A stretch of DNA of 20,074 nucleotides from a virus. Of this stretch, positions 6,553 through 20,074 are shown piece by piece. The notes under the pieces were generated by a model that was not told where the DNA came from, made no database searches, and saw only the letters and a program-made list of their open reading frames with translations. Numbering within the stretch: position 1 is the first letter of the stretch; each line of letters begins with the position of its first letter. The position numbers and the translations under genes were made by a program. The stretch spans positions 1-20,074 of the IMG/VR virus record IMGVR_UViG_3300030389_000008; one strand, written 5' to 3'.

Positions 6553-6906
6553 ATGACTGACAATAAAATTGATTATTTTGATGGTATTAGAGATCATTTT
6601 AGCACATTAGATACTAAAATTATTGAAGTTCCAGAGTGGGGTTTAGTTGGCGATAAAGCTATTCATTGTAAACCATTTAATATGATGGAGAAGCAAAAGA
6701 TTTTCAAAGGTGCAAGTAACACAGATTTATTAGTTTTGATTGATGTTATTATTGAAAAATCTCTAACAGCAGATGGTAAAAAAATGTTTACTGGTCAAGA
6801 TGTTTTGGGTTTTAAGACAAAAGCTGATACAAATATCATAGCAGATGTTGCCACTAAAATAATGGGTACGGAAAACAAAGATATACAAGACAATAAAAAA
6901 AACTAA
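6553..6906 (+). CDS. Tail assembly chaperone, unshifted product (gpG-like)
   Basis: The zero-frame product is 117 residues and ends at TAA 6904-6906 directly after the slippery run. It starts seven bases after the tube gene with a weak ribosome site. The protein is mixed alpha-beta with a PEWGLVGDKAIHCKPFNM strand region and a helix with DLLVLIDVIIEKSLTADGKK. By analogy with lambda gpG it should coat the tape measure during tail assembly. It has no distinctive motif of its own. Its identity rests on position between tube and tape measure, and on the frameshift into a second short domain. Confidence 0.8.
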   Translation: MTDNKIDYFDGIRDHFSTLDTKIIEVPEWGLVGDKAIHCKPFNMMEKQKIFKGASNTDLLVLIDVIIEKSLTADGKKMFTGQDVLGFKTKADTNIIADVATKIMGTENKDIQDNKKN

Positions 6907-7076
6907 AAAATAATGTTGAGTTGCATAATATCTTTGGGTTAGCAGAAAAACTACACAAAACAGTTGCCGAAATTTTAGAAATGTCAGTTGATGAATTTTA
7001 TTTATGGGTAGCATATTTTGAGATTCAAAACGAAGAAAGAGAAAGACAAGAACGATTAGAAAGGGCAAGGCGATAA
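6553..7076 (+). CDS. Tail assembly chaperone, -1 frameshift fusion (gpG-T-like)
   Basis: A -1 shift at A AAA AAC (6897-6903) joins the 117-residue G-like part to a 57-codon extension (6903-7076), giving about 174 residues. The extension has no stop until TAA 7074-7076, which abuts the tape measure GTG. It contains GLAEKLHKTVAEILEMSVDEF, split here as a helix, then YLWVAYFEIQNEERERQER. The 'EF..W.AYF.I' pattern is typical of T-like domains that bind the tape measure. The first ATG in the extension frame is at 6981, well inside it, so shifting is the simplest way to express the whole domain. Coding character and codon phasing are clear. Confidence 0.85.
6897..6903 (+). promoter_or_regulatory. 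Programmed -1 ribosomal frameshift site
   Basis: The heptamer A AAA AAC is in the correct phase: 6897 is the third base of a zero-frame AAA codon, followed by AAA and AAC, then an immediate TAA stop. It is a canonical X XXY YYZ slippery sequence. Tail chaperone genes of siphoviruses use such sites to make a small amount of fusion protein. No strong downstream stem-loop is obvious; the adjacent stop codon or a weak structure may stimulate shifting. Confidence 0.9.
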
Positions 7077-9050
7077 GTGGCGACTAAAAAAGTTAACATA
7101 GATATTGTAGCTAAAGACAAGACACGTCAAGCTATGCAGTCAGCCACCAAAGGCGTTGATAATCTAAAAAATTCTGTTTTTAATCTTAGAAATGCTTTAG
7201 TTGGTTTAGGGGTAGGCGTTGCAGTAAAATCTTTTATTGATGTAGGTAAGTCAGTAGAAAGTCTACAAGTTAGATTAAAATTTCTTTTTGGTAGTGCTAA
7301 AGAAGGAGCAAAGGCTTTTGAAGTAATGAGCAAATTTGCTGGTAAAGTGCCTTTTAGTTTAGATCAAATACAACAAGCATCTGGAAATTTAGCAGTAGTC
7401 AGCAAAGATGCTGATGAGTTAAATAAAATGTTAGAAATAACTGGTAACGTTGCATCTGTTACTGGTTTGGATTTTAGAACAACTGCTGAACAAATCCAAA
7501 GGTCATTTAGTGCTGGTGTTGCTAGTGCAGATATATTTAGAGAAAGAGGGGTAAGGGATTTACTTGGCTTTAAAGCTGGTGCAACAGTAACAGCTAAAGA
7601 AACTGCTGAAGCATTTGAAAGAGTATTTGGCAAAGGTGGTAGGTTTGGAAATGCCACAGATGAATTTGCACAAACTTTTGTAGGTACTATGTCTATGATA
7701 GGCGATAGTATATTTAACTTTAAAAAAGTAGTAGCAGAAAGTTTAATGGGTGCTTTAAAAAAAGAATTTGGAGCATTAGATGTAGCTTTAAAAAATAACC
7801 AAGATGTAATAGAAAATATAGCAACAGCATTGGGAAAAGGTTTAGCATCAGCAGTTACAATGGTAAGTAAAGGTGTAAAACTATTACATGATAATTTTGA
7901 CAGTATAAAAAGGTTAGGTATGAGCCTTATAATATTTGGAGTTGCACAAGCATTTTTAAAATTAGCTTTTGCTATTGGTAAAGCAAGATTAGGACTTTTA
8001 GCTTTCACTAGGTTAAGTAAAACTACAGTAATAGGAATATTATTTGCATTAGGAATTACAGCAATGGAAGCTACTGGAAAACTAGAAAAACTTTTTGCAT
8101 TATTTGAAAAACCAAAAAGTATTGAAGATTTTTCAGCAGAAGTAGAAATTTTGACTGCACAACTTTCAACGTTTGCTAATACTGGAGTGCAAGGTTTTAA
8201 GGGTACTAAAAGGGAAGCTGATAAAACCTTAGAAGGTATGACAAAACTGTTGACTAAAATGAAAGAAGAAACTGGAGGAACTAATGCTGAAATAGAAAAA
8301 TTAGCTGGTCTTATAAGTATTTTATCAGACGCAATACATAGTGTACCAGAGGATTTAGGAACTACAGCAGTTACAGCTTCAGTAGAAAAAATGAACTTGC
8401 TTACGAAAGCATTTCACTCTTTCAAAGATGGCTTTATGGAAGCTGTCAATGCTCAAAAAACAGCATTTGAACAAATAGAAGATATAGGTTCACAAACTTT
8501 TGCAAAATTAAAAAGTACATTTGCTGATTTTATTATGACTGGTAAAGCTAATTTTGGTGATTTAGCAAGGTTTGTAGTAAGAAGTTTTTTAGAAATGTTA
8601 ATAGGTCAAGCAGTTAAAATGGCTTTTGCTAAGTCTTTAGCATTATTTAAAATGGACGCAATAAAAAAAGGTATGATAAGTGCATTTCAAAGTGTGGTGA
8701 CAACTTTAGCCAGTATTCCTTTCCCATTTAATATTGCTCTGGGTGCTGGTGCATTAGCCTTCGCTATGGGTTTTGTAAATAAAATAAAAGGATTTGAAAA
8801 AGGTGGTAGACCTCCAGTTGGTAGACCAAGCATAGTAGGTGAGAAGGGTGCTGAATTATTTGTACCTGATCAAGCTGGAACTATTGTACCAAATGACAAG
8901 CTAGGAATGGGTAAATCAATAACAGTAAATTTTAATATCAATACAGTAGATGCTAGAGGATTTGATGAGTTATTAGTTAATAGCAGAGGTACATTAGTTA
9001 ATTTAATTAATAGTGCTGTAAATGAAAAAGGAAGAATGGCGATTATATGA
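7077..9050 (+). CDS. Tape measure protein
   Basis: The 657-residue protein begins at GTG 7077, directly after the chaperone fusion stop, with AAGG upstream. It sets tail length; at about 0.15 nm per residue this predicts a tail near 100 nm (rule of thumb). The N-terminal region (1-60) has KVNIDIVAKDKTRQAM then a Gly/Val-rich hydrophobic helix (41-51). Residues 60-220 resemble the tape measure N-terminal domain, with VPFSLDQIQQASGNLAV and SAGVASADIFRERG. Hydrophobic segments at about 281-301 and 317-330 are the membrane-active type used in DNA injection. The C-terminal part has a Gly/Ala-rich helix followed by GRPSIVGEKGAELFVPD, a common tape measure ending. The 3' end overlaps the next gene (ATGA). 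Confidence 0.9.
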   Translation: MATKKVNIDIVAKDKTRQAMQSATKGVDNLKNSVFNLRNALVGLGVGVAVKSFIDVGKSVESLQVRLKFLFGSAKEGAKAFEVMSKFAGKVPFSLDQIQQASGNLAVVSKDADELNKMLEITGNVASVTGLDFRTTAEQIQRSFSAGVASADIFRERGVRDLLGFKAGATVTAKETAEAFERVFGKGGRFGNATDEFAQTFVGTMSMIGDSIFNFKKVVAESLMGALKKEFGALDVALKNNQDVIENIATALGKGLASAVTMVSKGVKLLHDNFDSIKRLGMSLIIFGVAQAFLKLAFAIGKARLGLLAFTRLSKTTVIGILFALGITAMEATGKLEKLFALFEKPKSIEDFSAEVEILTAQLSTFANTGVQGFKGTKREADKTLEGMTKLLTKMKEETGGTNAEIEKLAGLISILSDAIHSVPEDLGTTAVTASVEKMNLLTKAFHSFKDGFMEAVNAQKTAFEQIEDIGSQTFAKLKSTFADFIMTGKANFGDLARFVVRSFLEMLIGQAVKMAFAKSLALFKMDAIKKGMISAFQSVVTTLASIPFPFNIALGAGALAFAMGFVNKIKGFEKGGRPPVGRPSIVGEKGAELFVPDQAGTIVPNDKLGMGKSITVNFNINTVDARGFDELLVNSRGTLVNLINSAVNEKGRMAII

Positions 9051-18290: not shown

Positions 18291-18332
18291 GGTATTGAAG
18301 TAATAATCACATCTTCATTTGATTTGGGGGTT

Positions 18333-18361
18333 GTATTAAAAATAAATCTGGTATTAAAAAT
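18333..18361 (+). repeat. Two 11-base direct repeats in the lysozyme leader
   Basis: GTATTAAAAAT occurs at 18333-18343 and again at 18351-18361, 18 bases apart start to start, and flanked by GGGGG (18326-18330) and CCCC (18371-18374). The repeats could be a binding site pair or part of a leader RNA with a distant G-C clamp. The lysozyme ATG at 18400 has no clear Shine-Dalgarno sequence. Confidence 0.55.
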
Positions 18362-18399
18362 TAATATGATCCCCATAAAAATAAAAATAGTGTAATAAA

Positions 18400-18855
18400 A
18401 TGAATTTAGAAAAATTAAAACAAGAAATTAAATTTGAAGAAGGTGTTATGTATGAAATATATAATGACCATTTAGGATATAAAACTTTTGGTATAGGTCA
18501 TTTGTGCAGACCAACTGATCCAGAGAATGATATGGAAGTAGGGACTGAAATTTCTGAAGAAAGAGTAAATGAGTGTTTTGAAAATGATTTAGATATAGCT
18601 TTAGGAGATGCTCAAGTTTTTTGCAAAGATATGGACATAGACGAAAACGCACAAGAGTGTATTGTTCACATGGTCTTTCAATTAGGATTAACTAGATTAA
18701 ATAAATTTGTAAAATTTAAAAAAGCATTACAAGAAAACGATATTCAAGAAGCTATAAATCAAATGAAAGATAGCAAGTGGTATAATCAGACAACTAATAG
18801 AGCAAACAGACTAATAGAAAAAATGGGTAAAAGTATATCGAAAGAAAACACATAG
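18400..18855 (+). CDS. Endolysin, T4-type lysozyme (glycoside hydrolase family 24)
   Basis: This 151-residue protein is a muramidase that cleaves the peptidoglycan glycan chain. The catalytic triad is visible: Glu14 in FEEG, Asp23 in YNDHLGY and Thr29 in KTFGIGHL, with exactly the spacing of T4 lysozyme (Glu11, Asp20, Thr26). The C-terminal helical lobe includes ECIVHMVFQLGLTRLNKF and WYNQTTNRANRLIEKM, matching the 'N..FQ.G......F......' and 'W....P.R......' positions, although Pro is replaced by Asn/Thr. Length is close to T4 lysozyme (164). No signal peptide is seen, so it should need the holin for release. The start lacks a clear ribosome site; the downstream gap is nine bases. Confidence 0.9.
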   Translation: MNLEKLKQEIKFEEGVMYEIYNDHLGYKTFGIGHLCRPTDPENDMEVGTEISEERVNECFENDLDIALGDAQVFCKDMDIDENAQECIVHMVFQLGLTRLNKFVKFKKALQENDIQEAINQMKDSKWYNQTTNRANRLIEKMGKSISKENT

Positions 18856-18864
18856 GTAAAAGAA

Positions 18865-19260
18865 ATGGCAATAACATCTTTAATAGCACCAGCTACAAAA
18901 TTAATTGGTAAATTTGTAAAAGACAAAACTAAACAAATGGAATTGGCTCACGAGATCAGCACAATGGCTGAGAAACACAGTCAAGAGTTAGCACTAGCAC
19001 AAATAAAACTGAACACCGAGGAAGCTAAAGGTAACTGGTTTCAGTCTTCTTGGCGACCTTTAATTGGCTGGATAGCTGGTTTTTCTTTAGGTATAAATTA
19101 TCTTATTTCACCTATATGTGCTGGTTTTGGTATAAATATTCCTCAAGCTGATATGTCAGTAATAATGCCTTTAATATTAGGTATGCTAGGAATGGGAGGA
19201 TTGCGTTCCCTAGATAAAATTAAAAAAGTAGATACTAAAGGAAGTGTAGGTAAAAAATAG
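18865..19260 (+). CDS. Holin, 3TM / gene-transfer-release type
   Basis: This 131-residue protein resembles the 'holin of 3TMs, for gene-transfer release' family. Residues 20-55 are a charged helix (KQMELAHEISTMAEKHSQEL). SSWRPLIGWI (61-70) opens the first TM (about 65-86), a short loop follows, and a second hydrophobic segment spans about 98-113, ending in GMGGLRSLDKIKK. W-R-P before the TM and 'LGM.G.R..DK.K' at the end are family marks. Holins form lesions in the inner membrane that let the lysozyme out. It directly follows the lysozyme gene. Its last codons are GGT AAA AAA TAG, and an open frame continues in the -1 frame. Confidence 0.85.
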   Translation: MAITSLIAPATKLIGKFVKDKTKQMELAHEISTMAEKHSQELALAQIKLNTEEAKGNWFQSSWRPLIGWIAGFSLGINYLISPICAGFGINIPQADMSVIMPLILGMLGMGGLRSLDKIKKVDTKGSVGKK

Positions 19261-19412
19261 AAAAAGAAAAAAATGAAACACAAGATATATATACAGATGA
19301 GAAACTATTAGGAACAGATAATGCGTGGAGTGATAAAGATAAAGTAGATACAAAAAAAGAAAATAAAAAAACTTTTTATGATGATTTTAATTATGTATAT
19401 TATAGTAAATAA
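19257..19412 (+). other. Start-less open frame after the holin
   Basis: From 19257 to TAA 19410-19412, 51 codons are open in the -1 frame of the holin. No ATG, GTG or TTG is in this frame after its preceding in-frame stop (TAA 19251-19253). The translation is hydrophilic and ends KKTFYDDFNYVYYSK, with an acidic/lysine mix (TDEKLLGTDNAWSDKDK) that looks protein-like. It could be expressed by -1 slippage on the AAAAAA run at the holin end (19252-19257), by initiation at ATA 19257 (AGG six bases upstream), or not at all. A start-less frame of this size can arise by chance in A-rich DNA. Confidence 0.4.
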
Positions 19413-19426
19413 CAAAGGAGATTAAT

Positions 19427-19525
19427 ATGCCTTATCATTATGGTAGAGGAACACAATCAAAAGGAATGAAGAAAAAAGGTAAGAAGAAAAAGAAAAAAAA
19501 TAAAATGAGAATGAAGAGAAGATAA
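19427..19525 (+). CDS. Lysine-rich microprotein (MPYHYG type)
   Basis: This 32-residue product has a strong AAAGGAG seven bases before ATG 19427 and ends at TAA 19523-19525, overlapping the next ATG (TAATG). The sequence opens MPYHYGRGTQSKG and then has a nearly continuous Lys/Met/Arg tract, with 18 Lys/Arg and no acidic residue. Very short MPYHYG-type proteins with a Lys-rich tail are, from recall, frequent in marine phage genomes. Its function is unknown; it may bind nucleic acid. Despite its size, the ribosome site and coupling support it as a real gene. Confidence 0.75.
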   Translation: MPYHYGRGTQSKGMKKKGKKKKKKNKMRMKRR

Positions 19526-19707
19526 TGGTTAAAGTTGCATCAATAAAAAACATCATTAAGGATTTAAAACCTAGACAACAGAAAACTATGCGATCACACG
19601 CTAGACACCATAGTTTAAAACACATGAGGTCTATGGCTAATGCAATGAAAAAAGGTGCTACATTTGGTCAGGCTCACACCAAAGCTATGAGGTCAGTAGG
19701 CAAATGA
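19525..19707 (+). CDS. Small basic His-rich protein
   Basis: This 60-residue protein starts at the TAATG junction with the microprotein. It contains LKPRQQKTMRSHARHHSLKH (14-33), then MRSMANAMKKGATFGQAHTKA and VGK at the C-terminus. The 'R.Q.TM..H..HH...HM..M...M..G..F..AH..A...VG' pattern is one I recall in small proteins of marine phages. It is predicted to be helical. The His/Lys/Arg density and the AH-K-A end suggest nucleic acid or metal binding, which is inference. The stop (TGA) overlaps the next ATG. Confidence 0.75.
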   Translation: MVKVASIKNIIKDLKPRQQKTMRSHARHHSLKHMRSMANAMKKGATFGQAHTKAMRSVGK

Positions 19708-19838
19708 CTGGTTTCACTACAACTGCTACCATATCGGAACTAATTAACAAAAGACCTATTAAAAGAAAAAGAAAACGATCTAAAACACGCAATAAAAAAG
19801 TTTTAAGAGCCACACAGAAACTTTTAAGACTTTCCTAA
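19704..19838 (+). CDS. Small arginine/lysine-rich protein
   Basis: A 44-residue frame begins at ATGA (19704), overlapping the previous stop, and ends at TAA 19836-19838. It has MTGFTTTATISELINKRPIK, then a KRKRKRSKTRNKK stretch and a helix VLRATQKLLRLS. Seventeen of 44 residues are Lys/Arg and one is acidic. No homologous family is recognised. It completes a run of three basic small genes (19427-19838) before an intrinsic terminator, so it is likely the last gene of the late transcript. Confidence 0.65.
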   Translation: MTGFTTTATISELINKRPIKRKRKRSKTRNKKVLRATQKLLRLS

Positions 19839-19859
19839 TACTTTTACCCTAAATAAGAA

Positions 19860-19895
19860 ACCCTAGCTGTGTTAAGGCTAGGGTAATTATTATTA
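19860..19895 (+). terminator. Intrinsic terminator at the end of the late operon
   Basis: ACCCTAGC (19860-19867) pairs with GCTAGGGT (19877-19884) around a nine-base loop, followed by AATTATTATTATT. The eight-base stem is perfect. The tail is T-rich but interrupted by A, so termination may be moderate. It lies 22 bases after the last supported gene, and no gene is seen after it in the window. Confidence 0.75.
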
Positions 19896-20074
19896 TTAAG
19901 TGATTTATATTTATTAAGGAGAAGATAAATCAATATTAATATAATCCCAAGAGATAAAAAAAACAACTGTCTCTTAAATAGCAAACTTAAAATTATTTTA
20001 TATAATTATGAAAATAAGTGTTGAATAACCTAAAAATTCTGCTAGGTTATTAATAATGAAGATATTTAATAATA
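19896..20074 (+). other. Non-coding tract with inverted repeats
   Basis: No convincing gene is seen. Three further inverted repeats occur: TGATTTAT (19901-19908) with ATAAATCA (19925-19932), whose loop holds AAGGAG; AAGAGA (19949-19954) with TCTCTT (19970-19975); and AATAACCTA (20024-20032) with TAGGTTATT (20043-20051), a nine-base perfect stem. A TATAAT at 20001-20006 lacks a clear -35. The tract could be a regulatory boundary between the late region and another module, or a structured leader RNA for a gene beyond the window. Confidence 0.5.

Follow-up and report, generated by a model that had tools for sequence, protein, structure and literature searches.

A start-less reading frame behind a phage holin gene as a probable small gene beginning at AUA

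Directly behind the holin gene of a marine phage, known from a virus record of 20,074 bases (the whole stretch of DNA that was analysed, referred to here as the window) lies a reading frame devoid of any usual start codon. This frame is very probably a separate translated gene, neither a frameshift extension of the holin nor a fossil. Judged by sequence comparison, it is very likely a small phage gene that starts at AUA (19257-19259), assisted by a Shine-Dalgarno (SD) sequence and placed in a stop/start overlap. Three options had been offered in the initial annotation, i.e. a rare ATA start, slippage out of the holin, and a fossil; the first was supported by the present analysis, and the other two were not. 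The features on which the argument draws are as follows.

18400-18855, plus strand: lysozyme (endolysin) gene (PF00959, 43.5 bits; threshold, 22.3)
18865-19260, plus strand: three-TM holin (PF11351, GTA_holin_3TM, 52.4 bits against a gathering threshold of 24.8; phrog_3427, holin)
19248-19251, plus strand: SD-like AGGT inside the holin gene near its 3' end, separated from the ATA by 5 nt (an SD 4-mer is present at all 15 distinct ATA junctions)
19252-19257, plus strand: run of six A, the sole possible slip site (from the sequence; equally common at ATG-type junctions)
19257-19259, plus strand: proposed AUA start codon (ATG at the aligned codon in homologue L140; a second family switches between ATA and ATG at this position)
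19257-19412, plus strand: small gene in the start-less frame, 51 codons plus TAA (coding score, homologues, substitution pattern)
19305-19328, plus strand: conserved core LLGTDNAW, xGxDN[AD]W in the family (alignment)
19427-19525, plus strand: the small gene that follows (32 aa), which has an ATG and an AAGGAG of its own

The start-less frame and its setting

The holin comprises 131 residues and ends with the codons GGT AAA AAA TAG; its 3' end thus holds an SD in the last codons and a stop that overlaps the ATA. In the -1 frame relative to the holin, a TAA at 19251-19253 is followed by an open stretch from 19254 to the TAA at 19410-19412 (52 codons from the AAA at 19254, 51 from the ATA at 19257), in which ATG, GTG, and TTG are all absent. 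The initial annotation had described this 51-codon frame correctly, save that its start was placed at 19252, two bases early. If AUA is the start, the ATAG at 19257-19260 constitutes a four-base overlap with the holin stop TAG at 19258-19260. Because the usual start signal is absent, the small gene was missed by ordinary gene listing.

Coding potential was assessed with a hexamer model. Its training set consisted of ORFs of 300 codons or more, taken from 194 loci (1.49 Mb) after exact duplicates had been removed, with some overlap left. The start-less frame was picked as a gene with a score of 36.6, and the holin scored 39.4. Among 3807 non-selected ORFs of 45-60 codons, a single one reached 36.5. 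With this score and the conserved homologues described below, the open frame goes beyond chance.

Three small ATG ORFs (starts at 19427, 19525, and 19704) lie 3' of the start-less frame, and a terminator-like hairpin is located past them at 19860-19884. The small gene sits between the holin and genes for small basic proteins, and late co-expression is therefore likely; a role of the product as an accessory protein acting late, at the time of lysis, is no more than a guess based on this location. The AlphaFold model was of low confidence (mean pLDDT 56.4), mostly without structure and with one C-terminal helix. No match to the protein was found in Pfam, PHROG, or NCBIfam at E <= 0.1. The G+C content is 32.6%. 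Among phage records, the only DNA matches of the window end (18300-20074) were to the Pelagibacter phages HTVC111P, HTVC026P, Aegir, and Kolga, which makes a SAR11-type host likely.

The gene directly 3' of such holins differs among phages (18865-19260 and the relatives L001-L080 and L144-L223), and basic, zinc-ribbon-like, and small membrane proteins are all encountered there. In 62 of 115 distinct junctions, an ATGA or TAATG overlap joins the next gene exactly at the holin stop. This variation of the downstream gene, often joined exactly at the stop, suggests frequent gene exchange at the holin 3' end.

Homologues and a second gene with the same ATA/ATG switch

IMG/VR contains at least 592 relatives of the holin, of which the 80 best were taken for comparison. 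Homologues with the xGxDN[AD]W core were found directly 3' of the holin and in its -1 frame in the window, L005, L006, L014, L033, L011, L015, L003, L004, L018, and L022. Two further copies are identical to the window (L001 and L002), one is truncated (L016), and one encodes the same protein as L004 (L013). A separate scan added L103, which brought the number of distinct sequences to 12; the initial annotation had held that a lack of homologues would speak against a gene. Eight of the 12 contain no ATG, GTG, or TTG at all, and the other four (L003, L018, L022, and L103) have only an internal ATG, 13-32 codons past the ATA. A scan for the DNAW motif yielded 27 stretches, ten of them in contigs that were already known; one of the other 17 belongs to the family (L249, on the contig of L103), and 16 do not. 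A tblastn search of 50,697 phage records with one query per family gave no match for this family or for the second one described below. No relative was found in scans of genome contigs, one of which used patterns that could match ATA-type copies only.

It had been proposed that relatives be inspected for a separate ORF with a start or for a fusion to the holin. No in-frame holin fusion occurred among the homologues found, and a stand-alone copy with an ATG start was recovered behind a different holin (L140, on the same contig as L144). Its ATG aligns with the ATA of the window (ATG CAC AAA GAA AAA AAT GAA in L140 vs. ATA GAA AAA GAA AAA AAT GAA in the window). This is the only ATG-start copy of the window family, from one contig, and a one-codon gap could put its ATG one codon past an ATA; because such a gapped placement is possible, the ATA/ATG equivalence in the window family rests on that contig and on the ungapped alignment. 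The window ATA, then, is found where homologues begin with a canonical start, and an AGGT stands at the proper distance of 5 nt.

A second, unrelated gene family, (I)EQTIENFEGTKN..., with a C-terminal hydrophobic stretch, follows the same holin group in L017, L040, L043, L046, and L065. A scan for this family gave 38 loci, of which 37 were read; the truncated L133 was left out. The codon that immediately precedes GAA CAA (or the equivalent pair), i.e. the first of (M)EQTIENFEGTKN, is ATG in 23 loci, GTG in two, and ATA in ten. The remaining two, L131 (ATA) and L132 (TAC), are extended at the N-terminus and begin at an ATG further upstream. Among the 23 ATG loci, an additional ATG is present further upstream in L116, L125, L126, and L134, and two consecutive ATGs are present in L104, L105, L106, and L111. 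The ten ATA loci represent seven distinct DNA sequences, which are of the ATAG-overlap type or belong to L107-L110. In the latter, the ATA lies 17 nt past the holin stop with a GAGG 5 nt upstream, and the stop does not force an ATA at that place. The -1 frame is also open as far as the holin in L107-L110, so that slippage is formally conceivable there.

Among the ATA-start copies of the second family, pairwise dN/dS was 0.00-0.32 (pooled, 0.20), and the polymorphic sites numbered 15, 5, and 29 by codon position. On both counts, a gene whose start position is occupied by ATA is under clear purifying selection. In L003, L018, and L022, the start-less gene runs with its 3' end (DGTNNRK[FL]) into the beginning of the EQTIENFEG gene, and the latter has an ATG in these loci; in the L017-type contigs, the start-less gene is absent and the EQTIENFEG gene sits directly on the holin-end ATA.

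In a wider survey, 32 of 1531 distinct predicted genes (score >= 15) lacked a canonical start near the front: 13 window-family rows, five second-family rows, L222, and 13 others. The first canonical start of these 13 others was 19-45 codons in, and one had none. At L222:10972-11469, the sequence ATC ATA GAC CCA ATT is preceded by a GGAG 7 nt before the ATA, and homologues have ATG or GTG before GAC CC. This is likely another non-canonical start and a hint that AUA starts exist away from the holin junction; the case is weaker because it comes from a single contig.

Junction signals, substitution pattern, and the alternative readings

The 115 distinct holin 3' junctions comprised 15 of the ATA-start type (12 from the window family and three from the second), 26 TAATG, 36 ATGA, and 38 others that were unscored. 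An SD 4-mer at a spacing of 4-10 nt was present at 15 of the 15 ATA junctions, at none of the 26 TAATG junctions, and at one of the 36 ATGA junctions, as well as at 1355 of 11129 sampled ATA triplets. The SDs at the ATA junctions fall into two classes, AGGT at 5 nt (seven junctions) and GGAG at 7 nt (eight). It is this signal, together with homologues that have ATG or GTG at the codon in question, that supports the rare ATA start. The ATG of the holin itself has the same AGGT 7 nt upstream, and among the other genes of the window an SD-like 4-mer was found at 4-12 nt in 13 of 26.

A second count, by holin plus junction, covered the window and the first 80 loci, with the length limit lowered. 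An SD was present at 17 of 18 ATA, none of eight TAATG, and five of 16 ATGA junctions (five of 24 ATG overlaps in all); 24 junctions were of other types. The sole ATA junction that lacked an SD (L058) precedes a 30-codon frame with no sign of coding. The five SD-bearing ATGA junctions (L023-L026 and L049) have AAGG or AGGT at 9-10 nt. The contrast between ATA and ATG junctions gave p = 1.6e-6, a value that is nominal because the junctions share ancestry; the ATA label corresponds to three changes on the holin tree, and a single origin is possible. Overlapping gene pairs of bacteria often carry an SD inside the upstream gene (PMC6728339), and for this reason the SD by itself is not special.

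Slippage is the first alternative. The -1 relation of the frames and the A-rich junction would accommodate a ribosomal -1 shift, or polymerase slippage on the A-run, at the last codons of the holin, giving a minor holin of about 182 residues that carries the extra 51. We regard this as unlikely; slippage might occur as a side product. There is no X_XXY_YYZ heptamer: the window has T AAA AAA, which the initial annotation had correctly called no classic slippery heptamer, and the second family has AGA AAA TAG. The stop is, however, preceded by A AAA AAA in six relatives (L003, L004, L013, L018, L022, and L103). Six A's precede the stop at 13 of 18 ATA and 21 of 24 ATG junctions (p = 0.26). Because the A-run is as common at the ATG junctions, it fails to single out the start-less genes, in contrast to the SD. 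In PMC4066793, A_AAA comes last among the tetramers listed above 0.26%, and stimulatory SDs were sought 6-17 nt before the motif, whereas the SD here abuts the A-run. The RNA fold downstream is no better than that of shuffled sequences (z of 0.29; 124 of 200 shuffles fold as well). The lack of fusions among the homologues found and the existence of the stand-alone ATG homologue also stand against slippage.

Elsewhere in the window, the ORF at 6553-6906, which precedes the tape-measure gene (7077-9050), ends in AAA AAA AAC TAA. It includes the classic slippery heptamer A AAA AAC at 6897-6903, and an overlapping -1 frame (6897-7076) has no ATG and a first TTG at 6921. This pair resembles the usual tail-chaperone G/GT programmed frameshift, and its slippery site contrasts with the holin junction.

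That the frame is a fossil, i.e. that an ATG was lost on joining this holin and translation ceased, appears unlikely. The ATG-start homologue would suit such a history, as would some of the dN/dS values in the window family. Pooled dN/dS was 0.47 for the window, L005, L006, L014, L033, and L140, and 0.77 for L003, L004, L018, L022, and L103; certain pairs were near or above 1 (L006-L014, 0.98; L011-L015, 0.97; L003-L022, 1.70). Against this, the frame is open in 12 distinct, divergent copies. For codon differences among the five ATA copies of the window group, the ratio of synonymous to nonsynonymous changes was 42:87 in the ATA frame, compared to 19:119 and 16:121 in the other two. In seven of the ten pairs, the ATA frame had the lowest ratio (0.28-1.0 vs. 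0.36-2.48 in the other frames where defined). The window and L033 differ at eight of 25 synonymous sites and at 14 of 115 nonsynonymous ones (p = 0.03). The polymorphic columns of the five copies numbered 11, 6, and 17 by codon position (p = 0.07), and 12, 6, and 19 (p = 0.03) when L140 was included. Of the random codon pattern that had been named earlier as a mark of a non-gene, some high dN/dS values were found, set against fewer amino-acid changes in the ATA frame. These comparisons suggest moderate selection on the window family, weaker than that on the second family. The fossil reading was set aside with moderate confidence on this substitution pattern; the low pooled dN/dS of the second-family ATA copies and the retention of the SD at every one of the distinct ATA junctions also argue for a living gene.

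A start further inside the frame, at another non-AUG codon or at an internal ATG where there is one (in L103, 13 codons after the ATA), is hardly credible: sequence alone cannot tell non-AUG sites apart, but the second-family ATG and the conserved stretch both begin exactly at this codon, the SD spacing of 5 or 7 nt fits the ATA, and ATG, GTG, and TTG are absent from the interior of the frame in the window and in seven further distinct copies.

The C-terminal tail FYDDFNYVYY was considered as support for the gene and was dropped after the ten loci in which it recurs outside the family had been checked. In six of them, the tail ends an ATG-start, zinc-ribbon-like frame; in L228, L229, L231, and L233, the latter frame breaks off before the tail is reached. 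Each of the ten loci also carries, on the same DNA but in another register and behind a GGAG, a conserved ATG frame of 22 codons (MTILIMYTIVSTIIGL...), and the tail was not used as evidence because its sharing may reflect that frame. The tail counts are biased as well, as the search pattern left third positions free. The other register is not conserved in the window family, where the last 15 codons of the five ATA copies differ by 3 synonymous to 43 nonsynonymous changes vs. 13:33 in the ATA frame. The 22-codon frame, MTILIMYTIVSTIIGL[QH]NAG[IV][LI] with GGAG and ATG, was seen in L225, L227-L233, L235, and L237, overlapping the FYDDFNYVYYC tail of the zinc-ribbon-like frame; its product is possibly a small membrane peptide. 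The A-run differs by one base between L229 and L227.

Proposed mechanism and known systems

For the preferred reading, a separate gene starting at AUA, we propose that (re)initiation with initiator tRNA would take place at the AUA, either by ribosomes that have just finished the holin or by 30S subunits that the AGGU of its final codons attracts. The product would be a protein of about 51 residues, lysine- and acid-rich and probably disordered, made at a level below that from AUG. The four-base AUAG overlap (A-UAG) would be the AUA counterpart of the common AUGA overlap, and the same arrangement of holin-end SD and AUA would serve the second, unrelated gene. An ATG at this site would turn the holin TAG into TGG, and ATA retains both stop and start; this may be why ATA is present. 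At the overlap, ATA is in any case forced, because an A followed by TAA or TAG always spells ATA.

It is conceivable, and advanced here only tentatively, that the holin 3' end acts as a portable SD-AUA landing platform, behind which unrelated small genes are swapped in and take over the AUA start. If so, the holin would keep a UAA or UAG stop, the passenger would be held at a fixed low ratio to the holin, and AUA would be a class of start in regular use among marine phages yet invisible to gene callers. To our knowledge, the common gene callers consider only ATG, GTG, and TTG starts, and an ORF listing based on these codons cannot report such a gene. The position of the start in homologues and the SD at the junction together provide a cheap comparative test of an AUA start vs. 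frameshifting. Should translation be demonstrated, a phage example would join the few natural AUA starts on record. The idea that AUA can function where genes overlap, with the aid of reinitiation and of an SD in the upstream gene, would then be open to direct test.

Initiation has reportedly been observed from all 64 codons in one study. A literature search over titles and abstract openings brought up, among the entries listed, no study of AUA initiation in pelagiphages or in the lysis genes of phages, and PMC11497404 and PMC11445065 yielded nothing usable on AUA. In Staphylococcus aureus, AUA starts give about 10% of AUG expression, with ccpN reaching as much as 30%, and the non-canonical starts described there are accompanied by extended SDs (PMC13009471). 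Strong SDs are more frequent for GUG and UUG genes than for AUG genes, if not in every phylum (PMC5622118).

The present case resembles S. aureus infC, ccpN, and citZ (PMC13009471) in having AUA in the start position and an SD that would aid a weak start; it differs in being a phage gene with an AUAG stop overlap and a 4-mer SD, whereas those are bacterial genes with extended SDs. With the AUGA and UAAUG termination-reinitiation pairs (PMC6728339), it shares the stop/start overlap and the SD in the upstream gene, and related holins themselves use ATGA and TAATG junctions. Unlike in those pairs, AUA takes the place of AUG, the SD in this holin group is found at the ATA junctions and is mostly absent at the ATG ones, and coupling to holin termination is presumed. 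The -1 relation and the A-rich junction recall programmed -1 frameshifting (PMC4066793), from which the window departs in having no heptamer or stimulatory structure, no fusion among the homologues found, and a stand-alone ATG homologue. AUA starts are thus known but rare; what appears to be new here is an SD-assisted AUA in a stop/start overlap, in two unrelated phage genes.
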